From a virus, in IMG/VR virus record IMGVR_UViG_3300017527_000132, positions 1 through 33,654 of that record: 33,654 nt of DNA; one strand, given 5' to 3'. Position 1 is the stretch's first letter; every line of letters starts with the position of its first letter. Both the position numbers and the translations under genes were made by a program. Shown piece by piece: positions 5,445-21,859 of the stretch. Below the pieces are notes generated by a model. That model was given only the letters and a program-made list of their open reading frames with translations, searched no databases and was not told where the DNA came from.

Positions 5445-6743
5445 TTATAAGCCGCGTGGCAAGAAAAACCCGGTTGTATTTAGCGAAAATACTATCGTCG
5501 CTACGGATTTAGTCGTATCCATTATGAAATCAAGTGCCTGGTCCGTTGGCCCCACTTCCAATACTTCAATTCCCCTGTGTGTATCCCGACCGACTACCGT
5601 ACCCGTAGATGCAGATGATTGACTCGGACGTGTAAGCAAATCAGACGCACTACCAACTGAAAAGTAAATCATAAATTCGCCCATCATGGAAAAACTCGGT
5701 AGCATTGTGGTTGCATATTCGGTCCAGCTTGTAGTTACATTCGTCGTGGATTCCTCAACACTATCGGCCCAATGTATTAATCTTCCGCCATCATGGAAAA
5801 ACTCAAGTATATTAGCACTTCCACCCGTTTTAAAGGCTCCGATGCACCTGTCCTCGGCGTTCGTCTGCCCAACCCAGCAATGCCTTGCTGCGTCCCATTC
5901 AGGCTCCTCGGTTATAGCCACTAATTCGGTTTCTGATATAACTGCCGTTCCTTCCGAAACTACGGCGCTGTCGTCTATATAAAGGTAATAAAAATCGTTG
6001 TTGGCTAAATCGGTACTGTCTGAATTACTGCCGCCTGAACCAAACTGAAATGTTAGTGTGGCATCGCAATTCACCACCTGTTCGGTTGTGCCTTGATGGT
6101 GAACTGTAAACGGATCAATGTATATTTCATCCGCGTCTTTCCAGGTGAACTTCGGCCTTGCGATAATGGCCCCCGGTAATGATGCCGCCGTAAATTCCTC
6201 TGCAACGGTATTTGCCCAGGCTGCCCCGTTCCAATGCCTGAGTGTCGCTGCCGTGGTTTGCCAAATAACGGTGCCGGTTTCGATGGTGAAGGTTGAATCG
6301 GACGGGTCTGAGGAATACACGTTGTTCGATCTAACACGCCATTTAGAGTTACCGTCATCCCATGTATAGGAATTGCCGGTTCCCGCGTCTATGGCGATTT
6401 CACCGTCTATTTCACCCGATGCCGCCGTGACTGCTGCTTCGGTTGCATACACCGTAACGACTATCGGCCCAAGGGTGCCGTAGATATTATCAACCGTCCA
6501 TTGAGTTACGTCTGCCGATGTTTTTAATACAATGCGGTAGGCACCCTCCCCCAGGATAATATCGGCTTCACCGTCCGAATCAAGGACAACCGGATTTGCG
6601 TTCGGCGTTGCCTTAGCATAATCCGAGTAGGTTGTTTTCGGGGTCGATGTTGCCGTAGTATAAGTAAAAACTTTCCCGCCGGATAGCGGATCACCGTTGC
6701 TGTCAAACGCTTTGAATTTCGGGTAGGTTAGTAATTGTTCCAT
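5445..6743 (-). CDS. Tailspike/tail fibre-like protein with head-binding N-terminus
   Basis: A 432-residue protein. The first ~95 residues (YPKFKAFDSNGDPLSGGKVF, then NPVVLDSDGEADI and TVDNIYGTLGP) match the N-terminal attachment domain widespread in podovirus tailspikes and fibres, which docks the protein on the tail. The middle (about 95-200) is a spacer with a trimer-like beta pattern. The C-terminal ~230 residues form a beta-rich region (QLTFQFGSG-like, DFYYLYIDDSA, NILEFFHDGG) of a type I associate with environmental phage fibres; no glycanase residues can be named. The ATG at 6743 follows an AAGAGG ribosome-binding site and the gene lies 12 bases after the largest ejection-type gene. 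Likely role: receptor binding at the tail tip. An enzymatic depolymerase is not supported by any motif I can see. Confidence 0.85.
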   Translation of the reverse strand: MEQLLTYPKFKAFDSNGDPLSGGKVFTYTTATSTPKTTYSDYAKATPNANPVVLDSDGEADIILGEGAYRIVLKTSADVTQWTVDNIYGTLGPIVVTVYATEAAVTAASGEIDGEIAIDAGTGNSYTWDDGNSKWRVRSNNVYSSDPSDSTFTIETGTVIWQTTAATLRHWNGAAWANTVAEEFTAASLPGAIIARPKFTWKDADEIYIDPFTVHHQGTTEQVVNCDATLTFQFGSGGSNSDSTDLANNDFYYLYIDDSAVVSEGTAVISETELVAITEEPEWDAARHCWVGQTNAEDRCIGAFKTGGSANILEFFHDGGRLIHWADSVEESTTNVTTSWTEYATTMLPSFSMMGEFMIYFSVGSASDLLTRPSQSSASTGTVVGRDTHRGIEVLEVGPTDQALDFIMDTTKSVATIVFSLNTTGFFLPRGL

Positions 6744-12019: not shown

Positions 12020-12643
12020 TTATGTCAGTCTTTCAATCGTTATGCTACATGCATTGGCAACCGTTAAGATCGTACTGGACCCTGCCGTAACGCTGCCCAC
12101 TAATTTCAATTTATCTTTCTTTTTCACAGTTAATATACGCTTTCCGGTTAAATTCTGATTATCGCCAGAGCCTAGCTGTGCTATGCTCAACGTTCCGTCA
12201 ATGTCTTCCCATCCGGTTCTGTATAATTGTAATTTTGCGTTTGCCGTCGTAAGGTCTGTATATGATGAAGTGTACGCCGTTAAGTGGTATGTAATTTTAA
12301 TATCACCGCTAAATAGCAATCGAATTTCTTCATCATCCGTAGAGTGGCTATAATTATTGTTTTTCTTAAAGGTTGTATCCCATGTAAAATCAGCCCAAGC
12401 CCCACTTGTGAACTCGTTTTCACCGCCCTGATCGTATAATGAAAGAAACGCATCCGGTGACGCGACAACATCACTGTCACCAAGTCTGTGAAGTGAATCA
12501 ATGCTTACCAAATTACCGGATGAGCCAGTTTTAACACCCTTCAACATCGCATATAATTCATTGAAAAAGGGGTGCCATTCTTTCGACAATCTGCCGTTGT
12601 CATCCAGAATTTTAGCTAAAAATGGGGGATAAATATTAACCAC
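12020..12643 (-). CDS. Beta-rich virion protein after gp10-like gene
   Basis: A protein of about 207 residues if started at the GTG at 12643, which follows GAGGGAG by nine bases; an upstream ATG at 12664 would add seven residues. The N-terminal ~40 residues contain a helical pattern (FLAKILDDNGRLSKEWHPFF) often seen at the start of phage fibre and needle-associated proteins. The C-terminal ~130 residues read as a beta-sandwich with regularly alternating hydrophobics (ITYHLTAYTSS, KLQLYRTGW, RILTVKKKDKLKL), reminiscent of C1q/TNF-like or fibre-head folds. It occupies the place of the P22 tail needle gene (gp26) but does not look like that coiled coil. Likely a tail-tip or decoration component; no catalytic motif is visible. 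Confidence 0.7.
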   Translation of the reverse strand: MVNIYPPFLAKILDDNGRLSKEWHPFFNELYAMLKGVKTGSSGNLVSIDSLHRLGDSDVVASPDAFLSLYDQGGENEFTSGAWADFTWDTTFKKNNNYSHSTDDEEIRLLFSGDIKITYHLTAYTSSYTDLTTANAKLQLYRTGWEDIDGTLSIAQLGSGDNQNLTGKRILTVKKKDKLKLVGSVTAGSSTILTVANACSITIERLT

Positions 12644-14153
12644 GTTCAATATCTCCCTCAACATGAGCGCCGATTAATGCCAGGTCTACGGGGTCACTAC
12701 ACCTCACACGGTATGATCTTTGACGTGAAGTACCTAATTTATACATTGGTGCTCTGAATAAATAATCCCCAAGTTGCCCGATTTTCACCATTCTTTCGCC
12801 TTGCCACGACCAACCATCGTTTGAATAATCCACAAGAGCATACACCCTCGGACTTGTTTCGGTTTCATTATCCGCTACCACCACAAAGTTATGATCGGTG
12901 TCGAGAACGTATTTGCCCTCGGTATCGGTCATGTAATCACCGTAAGCGCCTTCGCCGTATTCCATTTCAAGTTCAAGCGATTTATGAACGATTCTTTTTA
13001 TACCGTCTGAGGGAATATTGATTGTAAATTCTTTTAGAACGGGTCGCCTGTAATCGGCATAATGCGTGGATAACAGCTCGTAAATCAGGCCGTTTCGATA
13101 ATCCCCCACGATATGTTTATTGTCAAAAAGAGTGTAGCAGTTAGCACGATGCCTGAATTGCTGATCGGGGTGCGCATCCGTCCACGATGATCTTTGATGC
13201 CAAAGCGTAGTCGCCATATCCAGTACCCACGTTTTACCATCGGACGGAAACGTGAGTTGATACCAAGGGTGGCCCTCGAACGTGTATGCAAAAGCAAAAG
13301 CATCGCTGGTTGTACCGTAATTAGCGATTTCATAATCCATTTGGCGTGTACTGACAATCTGAGGGGAGTATCCAACTGCTCTTGCCACCTGTCTTTCATG
13401 CGTGAGCCATAAAACGCCATTGTCTATTTTAGCAACCGAGTCTCTAGCACCGCATCCTTTTTCGATAAACGATCCCTGTATTCGTTCAAACGGGAAATCA
13501 GCCGCGCCCGTGTTTATCCAAACACTTGTGGAGCGTTCCCCAAAATTCCATAATTCACGATGATCGGTTTCAATCGACATGGTGTTGTCGGGATTACCTT
13601 CCGCGGACGCAAAATCCAGGGCATCCCATGAAGTCCCGTCATAAAGCGTGGACACGTTCATTTGACCTGTATCAGTCGGTGACACGATGAAATAACCGTC
13701 CTGATAAATAACCTTTCTACCACCTGGAAAATCCCTGTCCTTAATGCGTTTAAATTCCTCTGAGTTCCAGTTATAGATGTATCCGTTAGGCCCGTCCACG
13801 ATCATTAATTCGCCGCCGTTATCGGCCATTGATACACGCCCTGAGAGTGTCTTGAGCGTCCCTATTTCGGTCTTTGTCTTGTCGGCCTCATACTGGTATA
13901 GCTTATCGTGCGAAACAACGTAGAGAAGCTCTGGGGTGTCGGCTTTGGGTCGGGTGGGGGATGAACGATATATGCCTCTTATTTCCCTGCCGGTGCCGGT
14001 GTCGGCCCAGAATTTCAAGCCGGGGCAGGCGGAAAGAAAAATCTTGCCCTCATCTCCAGGGGGGCCTTTTTCCAGAAACATATTCACAAGCCTGCCGCTT
14101 GCCCTGTTTTTCGCCCTACCCTCGCTATATCCTATCGTAAATGGTACTCTCAT
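12636..14153 (-). CDS. P22 gp10-like packaged DNA stabilisation / tail hub protein
   Basis: A 505-residue protein. The N-terminal pattern (GRLVNMFLEKGPPGDEGK, then ACPGLKFWADTG) is typical of the P22 gp10 family, a beta-propeller-like tail hub that closes the portal vertex after packaging. Repeating beta blades with aromatic/Asp turns continue through the protein (LYQYEADKTK, YIYNWNSEEF, YFIVSPTDTG, LWLTHERQVARAVGYS, WVLDMATTLWHQRS). P22 gp10 is about 470 residues, so the length fits. The ATG shares its A with the stop of the gp4-like gene, giving coupled translation. Context and motif agree, so the family call is firm; the number of copies in the tail and partners are inferred from P22. Confidence 0.88.
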   Translation of the reverse strand: MRVPFTIGYSEGRAKNRASGRLVNMFLEKGPPGDEGKIFLSACPGLKFWADTGTGREIRGIYRSSPTRPKADTPELLYVVSHDKLYQYEADKTKTEIGTLKTLSGRVSMADNGGELMIVDGPNGYIYNWNSEEFKRIKDRDFPGGRKVIYQDGYFIVSPTDTGQMNVSTLYDGTSWDALDFASAEGNPDNTMSIETDHRELWNFGERSTSVWINTGAADFPFERIQGSFIEKGCGARDSVAKIDNGVLWLTHERQVARAVGYSPQIVSTRQMDYEIANYGTTSDAFAFAYTFEGHPWYQLTFPSDGKTWVLDMATTLWHQRSSWTDAHPDQQFRHRANCYTLFDNKHIVGDYRNGLIYELLSTHYADYRRPVLKEFTINIPSDGIKRIVHKSLELEMEYGEGAYGDYMTDTEGKYVLDTDHNFVVVADNETETSPRVYALVDYSNDGWSWQGERMVKIGQLGDYLFRAPMYKLGTSRQRSYRVRCSDPVDLALIGAHVEGDIERG

Positions 14154-14851
14154 TAATCCCTGCCTGGTTGAAAATACATTTCAGTTGACGATATTTCAGG
14201 ATAATGCCGTGATAACTTGCGCCTGCTTTGAAGCGCCAACCCCATGAGAACGGAGCTGGGTTCTTTGCCGTATTCGGGTGCCAGGTCTATCGCAAGGTTA
14301 TATTTCAGCATCCGATATGATACTTCGGGCATATCAAGATTGCCTGCAAGTGTTGGCGATTCTATGCGTCTGCGATAATTCAGAATAACCGTGTCGGTAG
14401 TATCGGATGGTATATAATCCAGCTTGAATAATCCGTTGTCTTTTTCTCGTTCGTAATAATATCTGCCGGGTGTTCCCGTTTGACCCTTATTGGATATGGC
14501 ATTGTAATCCTCAAGCGTCATCGGTATCAGGATATTATCGTTGCTGTCCGTGTCCCTGCGTGTGGCCGTGATGATACCTTCCGGCACTTCAAGGTCTAAA
14601 TCACCCCCACTGGCTTTTATATCGAAACTGGCTTTAGCTGAAAGCGTTAAGGTCGCTATCGCCTGTATCCACGGTTTTATACCAATATCGGTTCTATCGG
14701 GTGGACCGGCTAATTGTTCCAGCATCCAGATAAAGGCATCGAGCGCATTTTGCATTTCATCGTCGGTGGGTGTCGTGTGAATATCGTGAACGCCCAAAAC
14801 CCTTAAACTCGCTTTTATTAATTCATTTCCGGTTATTGTTCGTAAAGCCAT
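14153..14851 (-). CDS. P22 gp4-like head-to-tail adaptor / head closure protein
   Basis: A 232-residue protein. Residues ~8-50 carry the family pattern: ELIKASLRVLGV, a Thr-Pro-Thr-Asp turn, then a helix ending in a leucine-rich LEQLAG segment. This is the hallmark of P22 gp4-type tail accessory proteins that bind the portal ring and receive gp10. The C-terminal half contains YEREKDNGLFKLDYIP and a conserved-looking YRRRIESPTLA, then a helix (LKYNLAIDLAPEYGK) typical of these proteins. It is longer than P22 gp4 (166 residues). ATG at 14851 is one base after the TAG of the GT9-like gene and lies directly upstream of the gp10-like gene, as expected. Confidence 0.88.
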   Translation of the reverse strand: MALRTITGNELIKASLRVLGVHDIHTTPTDDEMQNALDAFIWMLEQLAGPPDRTDIGIKPWIQAIATLTLSAKASFDIKASGGDLDLEVPEGIITATRRDTDSNDNILIPMTLEDYNAISNKGQTGTPGRYYYEREKDNGLFKLDYIPSDTTDTVILNYRRRIESPTLAGNLDMPEVSYRMLKYNLAIDLAPEYGKEPSSVLMGLALQSRRKLSRHYPEISSTEMYFQPGRD

Positions 14852-14852
14852 G

Positions 14853-16229
14853 CTATGCCGCCTTTTGTGTGGTTTTACTCATTGCTAATTCAATCGCTTC
14901 CTCAACGGTATTCACGTTGATTCGGGCCTGACACAATGCTGCGCCGGTTACGCTATCCTGATTGCAGAAATGCCATGTATAGTGCAATCGGTGACAAGGA
15001 AAACACGGACAATCTTTTTTATCGGGTTCCAAGCTGATTGTGTTTACCCAATGCTTGCTGACGTTTTCCCTGCTGCTGTGGCTTAAGAATATTATTGTGG
15101 GAGTGAGTTCCATCCCCACGGCGTTTATAACACCCGTTTCAGGCCCGATAACGATATCTGCCTGTGTAACGGCGAATGTGAGCGTGTTTCTGATTTTCTC
15201 TCCCGCCCAGAGATGGACTCTTTTCTCGTTTTCCCAACCGGATTGAAGCATTTTGCACATTTCGTCACCCGTGAGAACGATACTTGCTTCGGGATATTTA
15301 ACTAATAACCGTGCTATGATCTGATCCAGGTAGGGCCATGTCTTGTGAATAGATGAACCGGACAAAACCCAATGAATAATGGGTCCAGCCCCGATTTGCT
15401 TCCTTTTTTGAACGCACCATTGAATTTCTTTCTTGTCGGGATAGAATTTCGTGTTGAACGGCGGATATGGTAATTCTGCCAAGTCGTGCGTAAATTCAAG
15501 ATAATTTATGCTCATGTATTTCTGTCTGGCGCTATAAGGCCATTTATTGTTCATTCTGCCGGGAAGCGCAAGAATCGTGCCCTCAACGGATTCGGACAGG
15601 TTTATGATTTTATCGTACTTGGTTTTCAGAAATTCCCAATGATAATCAAGTTGCTGGTTCGGCACCTGATCTTTGTCGGTAATGAATATATCGTCCACGT
15701 TGGGATCATCTTTTATAATGGATGCGCTTTTAGGTTGACATAGAACGGTGATGTGGTATCCTTGTTTTTTCAAAGGCGGAAATATACTGCTTATTTGAAT
15801 CATATCTCCAACGGCACCATACCTGATAACCAAAACCGTTTTCGGTGGTCGTTCATCATTGTAAAATATGAGTTGTTGCTTGTCTGAGCGTTTCTTGTAA
15901 ACATGAATGAAATCATCTTCTGATTTTTCCGATAAGAGAAAATCCCATCCCTTGATATTCATCATCTGAGGCGCTCGATTCTCACCGATTAAAATGAAAT
16001 GCCCACCCTGTCTTATTCTTTGCCATGCTTTCAGAAACAGGGATTCATCTCTTAATTCGTGCAAAATAACGTAATCCCAGCGTGACTTGTGAAAATACCG
16101 GAAATCCGATTCGTCACAACCCGTGAAATGGGGCCACATTTTCGGCTGTTCCTCCGGGATATTAACCTGAAGGCCACGCCCGCGTGTGAATGGAACAAGC
16201 TCGTATCTGATAGCTTCTGGTTTAATCAT
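14853..16229 (-). CDS. GT9 (heptosyltransferase-type) glycosyltransferase fused to degenerate methyltransferase-like domain
   Basis: A 458-residue two-part protein. Residues ~1-115 align in layout with a class I methyltransferase (PHFTGCDE near the usual acidic residue; WDYVILHELRDES; WQRIRQGGHFIL, like the post-motif III region), but the glycine-rich SAM loop is replaced by LQVNIPEEQPK, so SAM binding is doubtful. Residues ~130-450 are a GT-B glycosyltransferase of family 9: RYGAVGDMIQISSIFPPL at 136-153, IIHWVLSGS near 284, and the nucleotide-sugar motif IGPETGVINAVGM near 361. Family members transfer heptose or related sugars from ADP-heptose-like donors to LPS. A cysteine cluster (C407, C409, C412, C422, C433) could bind a metal. 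ATG overlaps the previous stop (TGATGA). It is the last gene of the sugar cassette. The donor and acceptor are unknown. Confidence 0.87.
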   Translation of the reverse strand: MIKPEAIRYELVPFTRGRGLQVNIPEEQPKMWPHFTGCDESDFRYFHKSRWDYVILHELRDESLFLKAWQRIRQGGHFILIGENRAPQMMNIKGWDFLLSEKSEDDFIHVYKKRSDKQQLIFYNDERPPKTVLVIRYGAVGDMIQISSIFPPLKKQGYHITVLCQPKSASIIKDDPNVDDIFITDKDQVPNQQLDYHWEFLKTKYDKIINLSESVEGTILALPGRMNNKWPYSARQKYMSINYLEFTHDLAELPYPPFNTKFYPDKKEIQWCVQKRKQIGAGPIIHWVLSGSSIHKTWPYLDQIIARLLVKYPEASIVLTGDEMCKMLQSGWENEKRVHLWAGEKIRNTLTFAVTQADIVIGPETGVINAVGMELTPTIIFLSHSSRENVSKHWVNTISLEPDKKDCPCFPCHRLHYTWHFCNQDSVTGAALCQARINVNTVEEAIELAMSKTTQKAA

Positions 16230-16468
16230 CAGTACATTTTCACCTGATAGTAAACTTTGGGTGGTTTTCCGTTGCCGATATTCACCACCATTTCGTCTAT
16301 CTCCTGAATCAAGTCGTTGCGCTGTTTATTCAGCACCCCGATTTTACGAGCGGCATCAGCTATCGTCGAGTCTTCCAATGATGTACGATGTTTGATTTCC
16401 TCTTGATGCCAGAGTTTTAGGTTCATCACGCTTAGTTTGTCCACCAGGCTTCCCAGCGTTTCTGCCAT
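16229..16468 (-). CDS. Small DUF4254-like helical protein
   Basis: A 79-residue, all-helical protein. The pattern LVDKLSVMNLKLWHQEEIKH, followed by IADAARKIGVLNKQRNDLIQ and an IDE motif, resembles the DUF4254 family and short relatives that are repeatedly found beside glycosyltransferases in bacteria and phages. Its biochemical role is unknown. The start is fixed by a strong GGAGAAGGGGG directly before the ATG, although this places the first 113 bases inside the end of the upstream C2HC gene in another frame. The stop overlaps the GT9-like start. A helper or partner of the cassette's glycosyltransferases is inferred from context only. Confidence 0.75.
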   Translation of the reverse strand: MAETLGSLVDKLSVMNLKLWHQEEIKHRTSLEDSTIADAARKIGVLNKQRNDLIQEIDEMVVNIGNGKPPKVYYQVKMY

Positions 16469-16754
16469 CCCCCTTCTCCTTTGCCTTTTTCACCTTGCAC
16501 CATCTTAAATGGCTTGTGACTTTCTTAAAACGCTTGCCACAATACTCGCAAACCTCCGATTCTCTTGGTTCGGGTTCCTCAACGATTTTCTTCACGGGTT
16601 CGGGTGGCTCCGGTTCCGGTATTGGTTCCCGGCCTTTCTGATACCCGACAAAAAAACCGCCGCCATCGTATTTTCTACCTTCCTGAATGTATTTGCAATC
16701 GCCACCAGGTCCGAACACTTCCCCATAGGGTTTTTTAGGATCAAATTCAATCAT
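16356..16754 (-). CDS. C2HC zinc-finger protein with proline-rich linker
   Basis: A 132-residue protein in three parts. Residues 1-42 contain KPYGEVFGPGG and YIQEGRKYD, a short pattern common in small phage proteins beside structural genes. Residues ~43-66 are a Pro/Glu linker (PIPEPEPPEPVKK). Residues 69-86 form a zinc finger with C69, C72, H82 and C86 (CEYCGKRFKKVTSHLRWC). The C-terminal ~40 residues are basic and Gly/Lys-rich and are encoded over the start of the next gene, so they may be under constraint from two frames. The ATG overlaps the stop of the GT4 gene as ATGA. The role is unknown; nucleic-acid or protein binding through the finger is a reasonable guess. Confidence 0.7.
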   Translation of the reverse strand: MIEFDPKKPYGEVFGPGGDCKYIQEGRKYDGGGFFVGYQKGREPIPEPEPPEPVKKIVEEPEPRESEVCEYCGKRFKKVTSHLRWCKVKKAKEKGDGRNAGKPGGQTKRDEPKTLASRGNQTSYIIGRLDDS

Positions 16755-17629
16755 GCTGCTTCCTTTTGGTTTCCGGTTATTTGTTGTATAATATCAGCAA
16801 TTCGTTCATAATTACCGATACCGAAATCGTCTAAAGCGAAAAGTTTTCTTGTTGTTCCATAGGTTGTTATTAGTTCACAGGCTTCGTCAACCGTGTTAAA
16901 TATACATTCTTCAGGAAATATATCCTTCGCACCGGGCCAATTATGAATTATTGTCGGAATACCCTTTGCCATTGCTTCAAGGACGTTATTCGGGCAACCC
17001 TCGGAAATAGAGCATGACAATAAAACACCAATATTGTTCAGCCAGGCATCCATTTTATGATGCGGTATGCGCCCGTGAAAATTTAATCGTTCCAGCGTGA
17101 TTTTTAAATCCGCTGCCAGGTTGAAGATATAATCCATTGTGGCTGAGTCCTGAACCCCTCCGGCAATATGGAGTTCATGTTTGGGCAATTTGCTTAAAAT
17201 CTGTATTGCTAGAGGGAAGTTTTTTTTCTGATTTATCCATCCCACCATGCCGATGTTTTTCGATTTGAGTTTTTCAACGAGTGTCCATTTGTTTAAATCA
17301 ACCGAATTGTAAATCACATGGGTTTTTACGCCTGTTTGTTTTTCAAAACCCTCGGCTAAATAATCGTTCACGAATATAACCGCCGAAACCTTGTTGAAAT
17401 TTATCTCGTACAGCCATGATTGATAATACTCGTATCTGCGAACCCATAGAATGATTTTAGCATCACCCCTGTAACGGTTTATGAACTCCTTGGCTTCCTG
17501 ATTCGCCCACATAAGCAAGTAAATATCGGTCGGCAATTTCAGGTTAATATTAGAATTTACGGTTAAATCATAGCCTTGTAATATATTTTTAAATCCTTCC
17601 ACCCATTGAAACGGTTCCTGTGTCACCAT
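16751..17629 (-). CDS. GT4-type glycosyltransferase (cassette gene 4)
   Basis: A GT-B fold glycosyltransferase of family 4 type, about 292 residues from the ATG at 17629, which follows AAGGGTTCAA and lies eight bases after the radical SAM stop; an ATG at 17662 would add 11 residues and overlap that gene by 25 bases. Diagnostic features: IYNSVDLNKW after the first domain, KNIGMVGWINQKKNFPLAI at the domain junction, LHIAGGVQDSA, and SEGCPNNVLEAMAKGIP with the E-x7-E donor-binding pattern. These enzymes move a sugar from a nucleotide donor with retained configuration. It is short for the family (usually 350-400), mainly through a reduced N-terminal domain. Cytoplasmic, no membrane segment. Acceptor unknown. 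Confidence 0.88.
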   Translation of the reverse strand: MVTQEPFQWVEGFKNILQGYDLTVNSNINLKLPTDIYLLMWANQEAKEFINRYRGDAKIILWVRRYEYYQSWLYEINFNKVSAVIFVNDYLAEGFEKQTGVKTHVIYNSVDLNKWTLVEKLKSKNIGMVGWINQKKNFPLAIQILSKLPKHELHIAGGVQDSATMDYIFNLAADLKITLERLNFHGRIPHHKMDAWLNNIGVLLSCSISEGCPNNVLEAMAKGIPTIIHNWPGAKDIFPEECIFNTVDEACELITTYGTTRKLFALDDFGIGNYERIADIIQQITGNQKEAA

Positions 17630-17637
17630 TTGAACCC

Positions 17638-18648
17638 TTAAATATGGTTGCAATCTTGACATAATTTCAAGCCCCCCGTTTTAGCCTCTCCGTTTTTGTG
17701 CGCATAATAATATTTCCGATACAATTCCCCCGCTAAAATATTAGGCAGGGATTGCTCATTGATATTTCCGAACACCACTTCGTAATCGTAGTCGGAACAA
17801 CATAGAATCAAATCCCCGTTATGCCTGAAATACAGCTTGTTTAAAAAATATGAGCATCCTTTCGTTTGTATTTTGGATGGTATGAATTTCACCTTCCCGG
17901 CTCGATTAAAAAAAGTTGGTTTAAGATAACCCCTTCCGAAATGAGTCACCCCTTCAAAATCCTTGTCCCGCAACTTGTATTCGTTAAGATCATCGTAATG
18001 GTTGACATGAATCGAATCACAACCGGCATCAAGCAAGCCTTGAACATCCTCGGAGTATTTAAGTTTATCTCCGTTCGTGGCTATTTTGACACGTGCATCC
18101 GGTAGATATTCTTTTATTTCTTTCAGGATCGCCAATATACGATTATCTTCCAGCGGTTCGGCCATTAAATAAGGATGAACGGCACCCGTGTAATTATAAT
18201 CAAGCAACTGGCGTAGGATTCGGCTTAGTGTTTTCTGACTCATTTTAGTTTCGGGTGATTTATTCAAATCCTTGTTGGGACACCACGCGCATGAGCGGTT
18301 GCAGAAATCAATCGTTTGAATCTGAACCGATTTATAGGTTTTTAAAGCATTTACACGTTCAGCCCTTTGCTGAATCCTGCTTCTGAAATCCGCATCGGTG
18401 AGCGCATCGTTACCATCGAACTGAGCCGTTTCTTTTAATTCCTTTAGCCTGTCGGACATTCTTTTACTTAACCAGTACGCTTCTGCTAATAAATCAAGGG
18501 CTTGTTGCTTGTTCTGCTCGGATTCGATATTCTTTTCAATTAAATCCCAGACTTCCCGATGAACTTCGCAAACATATCGCCTTGGGCTGGCTCCGAATTG
18601 AACCAGCTCCTTTGCTTTCTCAATATTATCGTAATGGCTAACGCTCAA
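17638..18648 (-). CDS. Radical SAM/SPASM-type enzyme in glycan cassette
   Basis: A 336-residue protein. The radical SAM cluster motif CNRSCAWC gives C116, C120 and C123 to hold a 4Fe-4S cluster; MAEPLEDNR is at the position of the SAM-binding GGEP-type motif, and VKIATNGDKL is a typical barrel strand. After the barrel come C265, C283, C284, C330 and C333, an arrangement fitting a SPASM-like domain with one or more extra Fe-S clusters. The N-terminal ~100 residues are a helical extension of unknown role. Related enzymes modify peptides or sugars by radical chemistry; the substrate cannot be told here. The start is a TTG overlapping the methyltransferase stop, with only a weak ribosome-binding site, so translation is probably coupled. 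Rare in a phage structural region. Confidence 0.88.
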   Translation of the reverse strand: MSVSHYDNIEKAKELVQFGASPRRYVCEVHREVWDLIEKNIESEQNKQQALDLLAEAYWLSKRMSDRLKELKETAQFDGNDALTDADFRSRIQQRAERVNALKTYKSVQIQTIDFCNRSCAWCPNKDLNKSPETKMSQKTLSRILRQLLDYNYTGAVHPYLMAEPLEDNRILAILKEIKEYLPDARVKIATNGDKLKYSEDVQGLLDAGCDSIHVNHYDDLNEYKLRDKDFEGVTHFGRGYLKPTFFNRAGKVKFIPSKIQTKGCSYFLNKLYFRHNGDLILCCSDYDYEVVFGNINEQSLPNILAGELYRKYYYAHKNGEAKTGGLKLCQDCNHI

Positions 18649-19237
18649 GAATTACCCACTTGTATTTTTTTATTTTATCGTTTATGGTTTCACACTCGTA
18701 CCGTTCGTATTTTATCAATTCCGTTTCGGTTTTATCCACCAGAAGCGCCAAAGTGTGAAGATCGAACTCATAATCAAAATCGGTGTGGTGTGATTCCTCC
18801 CACGGTAAATGAACATAAATTCTACCGTGCGGAGCTAAAACCTTGCCAATGCGTTCAAATCCTTCCTCTCTGTCATCGGGTGGAACGTGTTCCAAACTAT
18901 CAAAGCAGAATATTCGATCAAACCCGTCCTCGGTTTCCGGTAGTGTTTTCACATCTGCGTGAACCACTTCGCACCCCATGCGTTTTCGGGCATAATCAAC
19001 ATAAATAGGTGATACATCCGTCCCGGCCCAATGCCAATTATTTAGTAAAATCAGTTGTATCGCCGCTGACACAAGCGGTACTCCCACTCCGATTTCAAGC
19101 ACTCTTTTATTAAAGAAATTATCAGCATCCAGTATTTTGCCTAATATCTTGGCTTTTTTCCAAATGTTTTCACTAAAATGCTTTGCCTGTATTTTAGCGA
19201 TCTCATCCCAATACCCCTGCATTTCCTGATTAATCAT
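18638..19237 (-). CDS. Class I SAM-dependent methyltransferase (Methyltransf_11-like)
   Basis: A 199-residue protein from the ATG at 19237, chosen because it overlaps the preceding stop as ATGA and follows GAGGGGGG. Motif I is VLEIGVGVPL (about 47-56), the acidic residue after strand 2 is D73 (GTDVSP), motif II-like HADVKTLPE is near 92-100, and FDRIFCFDSLEHVPPDD (105-121) is the usual post-II loop of small-molecule methyltransferases. GRIYVHLPWEESHH follows. All elements for SAM binding look intact, unlike the fused domain in the GT9-like protein. Lying between a GT4 gene and a radical SAM gene, it probably methylates a sugar or sugar-linked substrate; that is inference. A nucleic-acid methylase motif (DPPY/NPPY) is absent. 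Confidence 0.88.
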   Translation of the reverse strand: MINQEMQGYWDEIAKIQAKHFSENIWKKAKILGKILDADNFFNKRVLEIGVGVPLVSAAIQLILLNNWHWAGTDVSPIYVDYARKRMGCEVVHADVKTLPETEDGFDRIFCFDSLEHVPPDDREEGFERIGKVLAPHGRIYVHLPWEESHHTDFDYEFDLHTLALLVDKTETELIKYERYECETINDKIKKYKWVILER

Positions 19238-20310
19238 GCCGCCCCCCTCAGACAAATTAATTTTTTATATAATTCCAGCAAACTGTCGATGTGATTATCC
19301 ATGATGAACTTCTGTCTGAACTTAATCACATTCTCCTGTTTCTTTCTGTGCTCTCCCCATCGGGCTTTTAATTCCCTCATTGATTCAACCGTGATGCCGA
19401 CATCGTGTTTCTCAATGAATTTGCTTGATTCGCTTGCATTTATTGCCACAACCGGCAACCCACACGCTAAATACTCGAACATTTTATTGGTTAAGGTCAT
19501 TTCCCATTGATAGCTTTTCTCCATATTGCCGACCAGACCCCAATCATGCCGTGTTAAACACGTTAAAAGCTCTAAATACGGGTATCCGGGATGCACCGTG
19601 GCGATTCCATTATAGTGTTTTTTAGCTTCGTTAGTTCCAGGGTAAAGGTGAAAATCAATGCCAGCGTTCGTGCAATCCTTCGCCACTCTGGTATAATCGC
19701 AATACGAGAATCCCCACATTCGTTCATTCTTGCCATCTATTTCACCCGGCAGCGTCACCTTGCCTTCGTACACTAAACCGCCCAAGTATCGCCCCATATT
19801 GTATTTGTATAAGAAATCAGGAACGTAGCTGGGTAAAACAAGGGATGGTTGATTTAATTCAAACTCTTTCATGGTCACATCCCTGACCGAATCGGAAACG
19901 AAAACAAGTCCATCGGCTAACCGGAAATTAAGTCTTTCTTCGTTTGAAACCCTGAATGGATTAAAACCATGATTTTTCAAAGAGCGACATTCAGCCGGTG
20001 TCAAGCGTGTCAAATAGGTGTCGTGAACGTCCAGTACCACCGGCACTCCGGTTCTTTCTTTAAGGATCGTGACAAACCAGGACGGTTCATTATGGCAATG
20101 ATAAATGTCAATATCCCCGACTTTTTCAAATCTTTTAATAACATTTATTAATTGCCCTGCATCCGAATAAATTGAGAACGTGTCGTAACATTCGTAAAAA
20201 CTCGGTATTTTTTTTGCAATTAAATGAACCTTATGCCCTACCTGTGTAAGCGGCAACGCCATTTTCTGCACTCTAATGCAGGCGTGTGCCGACACAAAAA
20301 CAATGTTCAA
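19234..20310 (-). CDS. GT4-type glycosyltransferase (cassette gene 1)
   Basis: A GT-B glycosyltransferase of about 358 residues from a TTG at 20310, chosen because GGAGGGGAGGGGG lies just upstream and the protein then opens NIVFVSAHACIRVQKMALPL as GT4 enzymes do. Features: DIYHCHNEPSW, VVLDVHDTYLTRL, LADGLVFVSDSVRD (domain linker region), and KMFEYLACGLPVVAINASES near the C-terminus, the donor-binding EYLA-x-G-PVV motif. Cytoplasmic, no membrane span. It is the first gene of the sugar cassette, separated from the head genes by a stable hairpin. Donor and acceptor are unknown. Several in-frame codons upstream extend into the hairpin region but lack a good ribosome site. Confidence 0.88.
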   Translation of the reverse strand: MNIVFVSAHACIRVQKMALPLTQVGHKVHLIAKKIPSFYECYDTFSIYSDAGQLINVIKRFEKVGDIDIYHCHNEPSWFVTILKERTGVPVVLDVHDTYLTRLTPAECRSLKNHGFNPFRVSNEERLNFRLADGLVFVSDSVRDVTMKEFELNQPSLVLPSYVPDFLYKYNMGRYLGGLVYEGKVTLPGEIDGKNERMWGFSYCDYTRVAKDCTNAGIDFHLYPGTNEAKKHYNGIATVHPGYPYLELLTCLTRHDWGLVGNMEKSYQWEMTLTNKMFEYLACGLPVVAINASESSKFIEKHDVGITVESMRELKARWGEHRKKQENVIKFRQKFIMDNHIDSLLELYKKLICLRGAA

Positions 20311-20333
20311 AATCCCCCTCCCCTCCAATTTTT

Positions 20334-20362
20334 CTTGTGGGGGTGTTTTAAGCCCCCACAAG
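20334..20362 (-). terminator. Intercistronic hairpin between head genes and glycan cassette
   Basis: A perfect 10-bp stem (CTTGTGGGGG with CCCCCACAAG) and 9-base loop, ten bases after the stop of the small head protein gene. On the minus-strand transcript it is followed by AAAAATTGG, not by a U tract, so it is not a textbook terminator. It may be a partial terminator, an RNA end-protecting structure or a processing site that lets head proteins be made in excess over the sugar enzymes. Confidence 0.55.
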
Positions 20363-20371
20363 ATTATGTGC

Positions 20372-20854
20372 CTATTCGTCCCACTTGCTGCTGTAAACAC
20401 GCACGAAATCAATAAAGAACGCTACCGTGCCGGTAGTCGTTGCAGTATTGGCATCGGTGCCATCAGCAGTTTGGGGAGTTCCGGTGCGAATACCAATGTA
20501 TGACCCAGCATCCACCTGGGCAGCGGTAAAACCCACCACGGAGGCAATGTCATACTGAGCTGCACCCACCATAGCCAGATCAGCACTTGTTTCGGTAGAC
20601 CCGTTCACAAGCACACGGGCCGGAACTTCGTCCATGCCGGTTCCACCTCCGGCAATCGTTGCCAGAGTCAAATGGCCGAACTTCAGAAGTTTAATCGGTC
20701 CTTTCGGATAAAACCGCGTAACATGGTCAGCGGTGGTTGCATCGGTCGTACCGAACGTATAACCCCCAGCCGCAGAGCCGCCACATTTTTTTGTCAATCC
20801 GAACCAACGGCGTTCAATTACGCCGTATTTTGCATCATCATAAGCGTTACTCAC
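20372..20854 (-). CDS. Putative capsid decoration / head protein
   Basis: A 160-residue protein immediately downstream of the major capsid gene, started by GTG with a strong GGGAGG seven bases upstream. It is Gly/Thr/Ala-rich with predicted beta strands (IKLLKFGHLTLATIAGG, ARVLVNGSTETSADL, TVAFFIDFVRVYSSKW), no cysteine pattern beyond a single Cys and no membrane segment. Small beta-rich proteins in this position are commonly capsid decoration or minor head proteins. I do not recognise a specific family, so decoration is inferred from position, size and composition. The strong ribosome site and following hairpin suggest abundant expression. Confidence 0.65.
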   Translation of the reverse strand: MSNAYDDAKYGVIERRWFGLTKKCGGSAAGGYTFGTTDATTADHVTRFYPKGPIKLLKFGHLTLATIAGGGTGMDEVPARVLVNGSTETSADLAMVGAAQYDIASVVGFTAAQVDAGSYIGIRTGTPQTADGTDANTATTTGTVAFFIDFVRVYSSKWDE

Positions 20855-20872: not shown

Positions 20873-21859
20873 TTATGATGCGCTATCCCATTTCACGATA
20901 CGGGCTTGCGCTGCGGTTGTATGGATAATGCCAAAGCCGCCCAAGTAATACCAGGCGACACCCTTGCTTCTGCCGTAATCGGACGGAAGTTTACCACGCA
21001 TTTCCTCTGGAACGGCAATCGCTTCCGTAACACCGTCCTGACCCAAGAAGAAAGCCCAATCGGACTTCGCATTATCCCAAGCATCGGAAGTGTTGGAATA
21101 AGCGTTCCAAGTGGTACTGTCGTTCGCACCACCCTTCGGAATTTGCGTTTGCTCCACAAAACGGCATTTCTCGTATTTACCGATTTCGCCGTTGTAGATT
21201 TGCTTGTATCCTTCCGTAACGTACTGATACACGGATTCCAGATCGTTTTTAAGCGTTCGGAACGTGCTGGGCCACCCGATACAAACATAGTCCTCGTTTC
21301 TATAAGGTGGAATATTGCGCTCTTTCATCGTATCCACGACTGCCGAAACGTGTCCTTTACGCATTGCAACATTGTTCGTATCCGTGTGAGTGCTGGCCGT
21401 AAGCAACGTCACCACCGCCGTATCGGTTCCATCGCTGGCCTGAACTCTCAACGGTGTTTTATTGAACTCAGCGTGAGAAACACAGTCAAAGAATTTCTTG
21501 GCATCGTTTTTGAGCGCCTTGTTAATAATTGATTTCACGGGATGTTCGGAAAGATCATCCAGTTTGCCGGTGTAGGGAACTGCATTTCCGGCTTCCGTTA
21601 CGCTGATAGTACCCTGCGTAATCGTGAAATTGGTTTCGGGCATGGTGTCGGTTTCCACCAACGTATTACCCTGGGTAGCTACATCGTTATACACATTGTA
21701 GGTGTATAATTCGCCCTTATGTTTTCCAAAAGCACCCTTGGCATCGCAGAATTGACGGAATTTCACCGTTGGTTGCAACGCATATCTAAGGTACTTGGAA
21801 AGTTTCTGGGAACTCATGTAGCCACCGAGGGAATTTGTTACCCACAGTTGACCGGACAT
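20873..21859 (-). CDS. Major capsid protein, N4-gp56 type (HK97 fold)
   Basis: A 328-residue protein. The N-terminal domain has the pattern of N4-gp56 family capsid proteins: LSKYLRYALQPTVKFRQFCD, a Gly/Tyr strand region, LVETDTMPETNFT, then a strand pair and a long helix (VKSIINKALKNDAKKFFD). Further on, VCIGWPSTFRTLKND and YNGEIGKYEKCRFVEQTQIP are the characteristic IHPDV-like and NGEIG...RFVET-like segments of that family. These proteins adopt the HK97 fold and form the icosahedral shell. The ATG follows AAGGAGATAAACTT, a strong ribosome site. It lies directly after the scaffold gene and before the small head protein, the standard order. Confidence 0.9.
   Translation of the reverse strand: MSGQLWVTNSLGGYMSSQKLSKYLRYALQPTVKFRQFCDAKGAFGKHKGELYTYNVYNDVATQGNTLVETDTMPETNFTITQGTISVTEAGNAVPYTGKLDDLSEHPVKSIINKALKNDAKKFFDCVSHAEFNKTPLRVQASDGTDTAVVTLLTASTHTDTNNVAMRKGHVSAVVDTMKERNIPPYRNEDYVCIGWPSTFRTLKNDLESVYQYVTEGYKQIYNGEIGKYEKCRFVEQTQIPKGGANDSTTWNAYSNTSDAWDNAKSDWAFFLGQDGVTEAIAVPEEMRGKLPSDYGRSKGVAWYYLGGFGIIHTTAAQARIVKWDSAS

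Follow-up and report, generated by a model that had tools for sequence, protein, structure and literature searches.

The window analysed here is an IMG/VR virus record (IMGVR_UViG_3300017527_000132) of 33,654 bases on one strand, and its head module harbours a minus-strand set of glycosyltransferase and tailoring genes beside dec, the gene for a putative decoration protein. The best explanation, which we consider moderately probable, is an exchangeable virion-glycosylation locus. Phage-encoded glycosyltransferases are present, of family GT4 by profile and of family GT9 by predicted fold; the attachment of sugar to a virion protein is proposed from gene linkage. Self-decoration of the virion is probable, since the enzymes lie in the head module and the first glycosyltransferase (GT4a) is inherited with dec rather than with the major capsid protein (MCP). 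An initial annotation of the window had suggested the same, and the agreement is in silico.

That annotation had described seven genes, from GT9 to GT4a, as a tightly coupled run inside the structural module. All seven open reading frames (ORFs) are found, on the minus strand and separated by short overlaps or gaps. Pfam and NCBIfam profile scans of the window proteins bear out the two GT4 enzymes, the methyltransferase and the radical S-adenosylmethionine (SAM)/SPASM enzyme, while the predicted fold (Z 20–23) bears out GT9. The bounds were drawn too narrowly, in that dec, a linked gene just upstream of GT4a, was left out. The features of the locus, in the order of transcription, are as follows.

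20372..20854, minus strand: dec, decoration (cement)-type protein of 160 amino acids (aa) with a beta-sandwich model; proposed glycan acceptor, from position, model and co-inheritance with GT4a
20333..20363, minus strand: strong hairpin in the dec–GT4a gap (11-pair stem, folding at −20 kcal/mol), which may serve as an attenuator or a processing site
19234..20310, minus strand: GT4a, GT4-type glycosyltransferase, proposed to transfer the first sugar to dec (Glyco_transf_4 2.7e-10, scanned as 19234-20412; TTG start at 20310)
18638..19255, minus strand: MT, class I SAM methyltransferase, proposed sugar O-methyltransferase (1.6e-14; glycine motif LEIGVGVPL intact, by eye)
17638..18648, minus strand: rSAM, radical SAM enzyme of BtrN type with an extra N-terminal domain (about 1-100), proposed sugar dehydrogenase (Radical_SAM 4.4e-9, SPASM 8.2e-12)
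16751..17662, minus strand: GT4b, the other GT4-type glycosyltransferase, proposed to extend the chain (GT4 5.2e-16)
16356..16754, minus strand: small head-module protein with an N-terminal KPYGEVxG...Y.Q.G..F motif and a C2HC finger (no Pfam or NCBIfam match; CEYCGKRFKKVTSHLRWC visible in the sequence)
16229..16468, minus strand: C-terminal half of a DUF4254 protein, 79 aa (DUF4254 2e-13, profile positions 74-138 of 144 only)
14853..16229, minus strand: GT9 fusion, with a degenerate N-terminal methyltransferase domain (about 1-120) and a heptosyltransferase-fold GT9 domain (127-458) that carries a four-Cys motif; belongs to the core genes of this group of phages

Inheritance of dec and GT4a

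The small dec gene directly follows MCP and sits between it and GT4a, whose TTG start at 20310 has a purine-rich stretch in front. A GT4a profile search of the PDB gave a weak glucosyltransferase match only (E 0.0075). In an IMG/VR search starting from GT4a, relatives were found in 30 contigs, counting the window's own phage and near-copies (L093/L094, L099/L100). The dec subtype lies upstream, after MCP, in 27 of these by sequence; L101, which starts at a cut edge with what appear to be the last 23–24 residues of dec (E about 6e-4), brings this to 28/30. It is missing upstream in L115 and L117, whose GT4a matches are the furthest removed in sequence (29–31%); L115 has a different small protein in the place of dec, with a weak profile match to it (prob 21%), and L117 has none there. 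A small ORF may intervene between dec and GT4a in L104 and L105. The linkage also holds in the reverse direction: a search starting from dec gave 31 contigs, 13 of them outside the GT4a set, with GT4a next in 30; the remaining contig, L144, ends before GT4a could appear.

An MCP pattern search of IMG/VR (574 matches, 563 encoding relatives, best 80 loci kept) was pooled with the GT4a search, using loci that continue for 1.5 kb or more beyond MCP and dropping six duplicate loci together with L101, L115 and L117 (no MCP). Both dec and GT4a are present in 25 of the pooled loci and neither in 68, with no discordant case; the near-copies L093/L094 and L099/L100 and the window's own phage are again counted. 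Addition of the dec search gives 38 loci with both, 68 with neither and one with dec only (L144), and among GT9-found loci with MCP, 2 have both genes and 66 neither. The MCPs of GT4a-bearing loci go down to 34% identity to that of the window. Absence of the cassette from relatives with the same block had been named in the initial annotation as evidence against it; GT4a is indeed missing from 68/93 loci, which speaks for modularity and does not refute the function. On an MCP tree built by a quick method, the dec/GT4a label changes at least 10 times, with four changes forced by well-supported branches (left out were 13 loci with less than 1.5 kb after MCP, L094 with its short MCP, loci without an MCP match, and further duplicates).

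The two proteins also diverge together. Across 30 phages, the protein distances of dec and GT4a are correlated (r 0.75), and the partial correlation given MCP is 0.70 (0/2000 permutations). Given GT4a, the partial correlation of dec with MCP is 0.19; given MCP, that of dec with GT4b is 0.65 (26 loci) and that of dec with portal 0.06 (23 loci). These distances leave out the near-copies L094, L100 and L133, as well as any locus that does not have all three of MCP, dec and GT4a in full length. Adjacency alone does not predict this correlation, because dec sits between MCP and GT4a, yet follows GT4a. As a pattern in protein sequences, it would be compatible with an enzyme–substrate pair or with a jointly exchanged block.

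The latter possibility leads to an alternative that we regard as fairly improbable, in which the virion is glycosylated on MCP, tail or fibre proteins, and dec and GT4a are merely exchanged together. As the two genes adjoin, block transfer would suffice for their linkage, yet dec is equally near MCP and nevertheless follows GT4a; no GT4a locus with MCP lacks dec, and dec without GT4a occurs only in the cut contig L144. In L161, a further rSAM locus in which GT4a stands behind a broken MCP, the C-terminus of dec alone is retained, which also counts against a different acceptor. This alternative gains from GT9, a core gene that does not follow dec, and from mycobacteriophage glycans, which sit on capsid and tail tube proteins in the portions of the report covered (PMC12363180). 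Glycosylation of another virion part, with dec hitch-hiking, is possible above all for GT9.

Side by side with these counts, tandem copies of dec occur in L109:9120-9974 (two) and in L144:3261-4507 (three), and L132:8341-10607 has two GT4a-type genes in succession after dec.

The predicted structure of dec is a beta-sandwich of moderate confidence (pLDDT 77). Its best matches among known structures reach Z 7 to 8.3 and include the phage capsid chains 7eel_H (Pam1, Z 7.7) and 8h89_J (GP4, Z 7.2), both of which we take to be cement proteins. A Foldseek search of the model in the PDB gave no match under E 0.001; BFVD yielded 93 matches with E 0.001 or lower, headed by an uncharacterized phage protein (4e-6), and these are uninformative on function. 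GT4a-free relatives have other small proteins in the place of dec. That of group A6 matches dec by profile (prob 70%, E 4e-5) and is perhaps distantly related to it, while that of group A7 gave no profile match to dec; ‘dec absent’ thus means that this subtype is absent, not every decoration gene.

Behind dec, the 75 bases after the stop codon contain a hairpin at z at or below −2 in 29/37 loci (mononucleotide shuffles); in loci where dec abuts or overlaps GT4a, this stretch belongs to coding sequence. The hairpins in the gap are GC-rich and unconserved in sequence, and a T-run follows in several loci, with none in the window. The annotation of phage PTXU04 puts a terminator behind the gene that occupies the position of dec. 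Partial termination, giving much capsid protein and little enzyme, is possible and would explain the presence of the hairpin.

The GT9 core and the changeable middle

The late genes of the window, all on the minus strand, run from terminase, portal, a scaffold-like gene (named from its position) and MCP through dec and the reported genes to a gp4-like adaptor, Hc3 and tail or ejection genes. The flanking features are:

20873..21859, minus strand: MCP of N4-gp56 / Phage_capsid_3 type (Phage_capsid_3 above cut-off; N4-gp56 model 1.4e-14, below its cut-off)
14153..14851, minus strand: gp4-like head completion adaptor (phrog_12985, function unknown, 1.9e-19; phrog_637 Ad3 weak, 0.0016)
12636..14153, minus strand: head closure protein Hc3 (phrog_578, 4e-104)

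The only near family-wide member of the reported set is GT9. It follows MCP in 57/62 IMG/VR loci that extend 6 kb or more beyond that gene (22/25 with GT4a, 35/37 without), the 57 including the window's own phage. Conversely, among the best 80 GT9 loci, MCP lies upstream in 42/45 with enough upstream DNA, and Hc3/gp4 downstream in 46/55. Of 600 pattern-matched IMG/VR stretches, at least 582 encode a GT9 relative, counting the matches listed; the phage collection gave no record matching GT9 at E 1e-5. These sequence counts make GT9 a core gene of the head module in a large group of phages, most of them uncultured. GT9-like ORFs also occur upstream of the capsid genes in L113:420-1484 and L110:668-1222, two of the three GT4a loci without GT9 downstream of MCP.

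Ten GT9 loci were matched in GTDB genomes, and in nine the gene adjoins MCP or portal. Among the nine, L149 and L150 (contigs of 148 and 101 kb) belong to Paraburkholderia assemblies that are not metagenome-assembled genomes, and are apparently prophages carrying the GT9 core, in Paraburkholderia sp. C35 and P. rhynchosiae WSM 3937. Host assignment is tentative, because the other eight loci are metagenome bins. Seven of the ten are titled with names of Gram-negative Proteobacteria, and an eighth is titled Deltaproteobacteria.

The GT9 protein of the window has no Pfam match and passes no curated GT9 cut-off; NCBIfam heptosyltransferase III matches weakly (1.4e-4) and far below its cut-off (TIGR02201, 21.1 against 170.2 bits), and in a relative (L012) PF01075 reaches 19.0 bits against 22. 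The assignment comes from the predicted model (pLDDT 86.7), which has a GT-B heptosyltransferase fold and matches Veillonella GT9 (3tov, Z 23.3), heptosyltransferase II (1psw, 22.6) and the protein heptosyltransferase TibC (4rap, 20.0). Four C-terminal cysteines are kept in 63/71 distinct GT9 C-termini.

The gene had been read initially as a GT9 fusion. A fused gene it is, and in many relatives the N-terminal part is a methyltransferase with DLGCGP...VDN...LLEHI; in the window, and likewise in L003, the SAM motif is lost (QVNIPEE). The motif is present in 1/14 GT4a loci with a standalone MT, 3/10 GT4a loci without one and 47/65 loci without GT4a, counts made by regular expression on retrieved ORFs, some of them cut by contig ends, and confounded by kinship. 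They are suggestive of replacement of the fused domain by the standalone methyltransferase.

Between GT4a and GT9, the gene content of relatives changes. It includes hexapeptide acetyltransferases, GFO/IDH/MocA oxidoreductases, a PIG-L deacetylase, GT2, a reversibly-glycosylated-polypeptide family protein, UDP-glucose/GDP-mannose dehydrogenase, NAD-dependent epimerase/dehydratase, methyltransferases, full-length DUF4254 proteins and sulfotransferase-like proteins (one at 22.8 bits against a cut-off of 22, one below cut-off). In a scan of 17 representatives rather than of every gene, 15 match sugar-work, methyl-transfer or DUF4254 families, two of them only below curated cut-offs. In these families the middle resembles a surface-sugar locus, here set within the head operon of a phage. 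The initial expectation of a fixed seven-gene unit, with the same order in relatives, had to be rejected: the parts differ in their distribution, with GT9 near family-wide, dec and GT4a a separate module, and the middle changeable.

Two members of the presumed cassette need correction. The DUF4254 assignment stands by profile; the gene encodes half a domain only and shares 113 nt with the C2HC gene (L138 has a full-length relative). The C2HC protein was rejected as part of the glycan pathway, since its N-terminal motif occurs in isolates without glycosyltransferases there: a weak phmmer match to the gp14 region of PTXU04, and the motif seen by eye in Vibrio phage 219E41.1. A cluster of 10 C2HC-type proteins in GT4a loci was likewise recognised by eye, not by profile. 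On these resemblances, the C2HC gene is probably a head-module gene outside the glycan pathway.

MCP matches 40 phage records. In the four examined (PTXU04, Bas95, Vibrio 219E41.1 and 1.232.O, 48–50% identity), the place after MCP holds small genes only, with an annotated glycosyltransferase in 0/4. HNH-endonuclease-like genes, recognised by eye, lie directly after MCP at the usual dec start in L009:2825-3409, L015:3725-4222, L024:5435-5938, L032:1792-2307 and L075:11032-11493; Vibrio phage 1.232.O has an HNH nuclease annotated in the same place. Elsewhere in the window, the protein encoded at 5445-6743 has relatives placed differently in other loci, adjoining the gp4-like gene in L010 and L016 for example, and is perhaps a mobile tail-protein domain. 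A promoter scan of the window gave 26 sites against 19.8 expected and was uninformative.

The presence of GT9 bears on a second alternative, also rather unlikely, according to which the enzymes modify the host envelope (lipopolysaccharide (LPS) core or O-antigen) late in infection, blocking superinfection or freeing virions from debris, while the capsid neighbourhood gives timing only. The GT4 and GT9 families are common among LPS enzymes, the GT9 model matches LPS heptosyltransferases at Z 19–23, and the Proteobacterial names of most GTDB loci would suit an LPS target. This would leave the close linkage to dec in both search directions without a reason, as well as the divergence of GT4a alongside dec and not portal or MCP. 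GtrA was found in 0/21 GT4a-bearing records, many of them fragments (control 7/14 genomes), and O-antigen conversion by a GtrA-type system was set aside on this count. Late alteration of the host surface, the other option of the initial annotation, is on both grounds less likely than virion decoration.

Much more remote is the idea that the glycosyltransferases act on DNA bases, as a hypermodification against restriction. The same phage as in the window is found in a longer record (IMGVR_UViG_3300017613_000620, 42,728 bases; 100% or 99.96% identity over the stretches compared), which does not count as an independent observation. That record (L176) encodes an N6/N4 DNA methyltransferase, which would suit action on DNA, along with a replication O-like protein and a nuclease-like protein of the DUF3799 family, and it contains a weak match to M8 peptidase. 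Phage glycosyltransferases acting on DNA are reported in the portions of one source covered (PMC12619734). Head-module position and the acetyl-, sulfo- and de-N-acetylase partners in relatives argue otherwise, and a search for the thymidylate synthase family gave 0/21 GT4a-bearing records, many of them fragments (control 9/14 genomes); DNA hypermodification was rejected on this count.

The radical SAM enzyme and the proposed glycan

The rSAM protein is homologous to BtrN over 234 residues. A single sequence matches 4m7t at 7e-17, and a profile of four phage copies matches BtrN at E 4.7e-30. Aligned with BtrN, C116/120/123 (CxxxCxxC) and C265/283/330/333 (auxiliary cluster) are invariant in the four sequences. 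BtrN oxidises the alcohol of an aminocyclitol, in the making of an antibiotic aminocyclitol; for this reason, oxidation of a sugar hydroxyl is the best guess for the phage enzyme, which by this analogy is probably a sugar dehydrogenase. A role as peptide maturase is disfavoured, as the only strong solved relative is BtrN; NCBIfam maturase models of the radical SAM type stay far below cut-off (best, tungsten cofactor maturase, 47.5 against 380 bits).

In IMG/VR, 19 contigs matched rSAM, eight of them at 42% identity or more. Seven of the eight have it in this slot (window, L089, L093, L094, L132, L133, L161, with two near-copy pairs among them); the other, L164, has it outside the head-module slot. 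The 11 weaker matches had no nearby match to the head-module profiles used. An extra N-terminal domain of about 100 residues is present in most copies seen. The N-terminal domain, at about 80 residues, is also encoded on its own by a small ORF of this slot in L101:1141-1422, L106:11767-11967, L112:9339-9608, L122:8605-8895 and L125:7838-8149. Campylobacter phages have distant rSAM relatives inside a radical SAM cluster, and the annotation of phage CPt10 (L179) lists six radical SAM genes in a stretch of about 12 kb. By gene content of the slot, rSAM is one of several alternative tailoring enzymes, and the remark that it makes the locus more than simple glycosylation is borne out by its kinship with BtrN.

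From the observed gene content and position, two-way linkage of dec and GT4a, correlated divergence and enzyme families, we infer an acceptor, sugars, an order of steps and a biological benefit. In the virion-glycosylation locus so proposed, dec would bind the capsid built from the neighbouring MCP, and GT4a would attach the first sugar to it, perhaps on Ser/Thr of exposed loops. GT4b would extend this sugar, the standalone methyltransferase would tailor it by O-methylation, and the BtrN-type rSAM would oxidise a sugar hydroxyl to a ketone via hydrogen abstraction. GT9, with its heptosyltransferase fold, would add a further sugar, possibly heptose from the host ADP-heptose pool, on the same glycan or on another virion part. 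As tailoring genes vary by lineage while dec and GT4a remain paired, differing capsid coats would result. More speculatively, and with doubt outweighing belief, N4-gp56-type podovirus-like phages may possess a polymorphic capsid-glycan locus, with an exchangeable dec–glycosyltransferase pair and interchangeable tailoring enzymes, here a rSAM dehydrogenase making a virion keto-sugar, giving rise to capsid ‘serotypes’.

Several points weigh against virion glycosylation through dec. The identification of dec as a decoration protein derives from its position and a model of moderate confidence (pLDDT 77), and structural matches of up to Z 8.3 are at a level common for beta-sandwich arrangements. 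Its correlated divergence with GT4a could be neighbour block transfer without enzyme–substrate contact. The MCP tree carries long-branch warnings, which limits support for repeated, independent turnover of dec and GT4a, and a sign test on independent pairs in it was not significant (three pairs, starred branches). Given MCP, the partial correlation of dec with GT9 is 0.00 (18 loci); because GT9 divergence does not follow that of dec, the GT9 acceptor may be something other than dec. Enzymes of the GT4 and GT9 families are moreover typical of LPS pathways, and the searches for markers of the rival explanations covered 21 GT4a-bearing records, many of them fragments.

If self-glycosylation is correct, it would be a core trait of this large group of mostly uncultured phages, whose capsid coats would vary through gene exchange in the manner of bacterial surface sugars. 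It would offer glycosyltransferases whose likely substrates are encoded by the neighbouring gene, and a viral radical SAM enzyme for sugars would mean radical chemistry on a virus glycan. The question of why capsids need sugar coats outside animals would become directly testable; the putative Paraburkholderia prophages with the GT9 core (L149, L150) would make self-glycosylation itself testable.

Comparison with known systems

Virion glycosylation in the mycobacteriophages Che8, Corndog and Myrna was reportedly described by Freeman et al. in 2023. In the portions of the literature covered, reports of phage virion glycosylation are confined to a few mycobacteriophages, and in these three the phage glycosyltransferases glycosylate their own capsid or tail proteins (PMC12363180, PMC11256854). 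As far as these portions go, the likeness lies in phage-encoded glycosyltransferases with the own virion as target, the glycan here being deduced from genes alone. In the F1 phage Maravista, the enzymes lie near the 3′ end of the genome, whereas those of the window are inside the head module (PMC12363180, PMC11256854). The mycobacteriophage targets described there are capsid and tail tube, while the window locus is tied to a decoration-type gene and differs further in its changeable tailoring enzymes, including radical SAM, and in hosts and capsid family. Literature searches, judged by the overview of their results, gave no description of a decoration-linked, exchangeable, radical-SAM-bearing arrangement; against the partly covered mycobacteriophage precedent, the exchangeable decoration-linked form appears to be new.

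Four-Cys motifs may occur in other GT9 proteins besides those compared here. The protein O-heptosyltransferases of the TibC/BAHT type have in common with the window GT9 the GT-B heptosyltransferase fold (Z 20) and a C-terminal four-Cys motif; according to the portions of the source covered, TibC binds iron through its four finger cysteines (PMC4358343). Counted from where the fold starts, the invariant D142 of the window GT9 is placed much like the catalytic D110 of TibC, as taken from this partly covered source and by numbering, not superposition. Cysteine spacing differs, with x9 in the window against x15 in TibC between the second and third Cys. The TibC substrate is an autotransporter, and its N-terminal domain is a beta-barrel where window relatives have a methyltransferase domain, again within the portions covered (PMC4358343). 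Enzymes of the BAHT type form a dodecamer ring. Against the window GT9 model, TibC is outscored by Veillonella GT9 and LPS heptosyltransferase II.

BtrN and the phage rSAM have in common the CxxxCxxC motif and four auxiliary-cluster cysteines over 234 residues, and differ by the extra N-terminal domain of about 100 residues in most phage copies seen.

Bacterial O-antigen and capsule loci have conserved ends and a changeable middle of sugar-tailoring genes. The phage locus resembles them in its own conserved ends and changeable tailoring middle. A GtrA-type anchor was not found in the 21 records, other flippases or polymerases not being searched for. Unlike polysaccharide loci, the phage locus lies beside capsid genes, and its acceptor is thought to be a virion protein.

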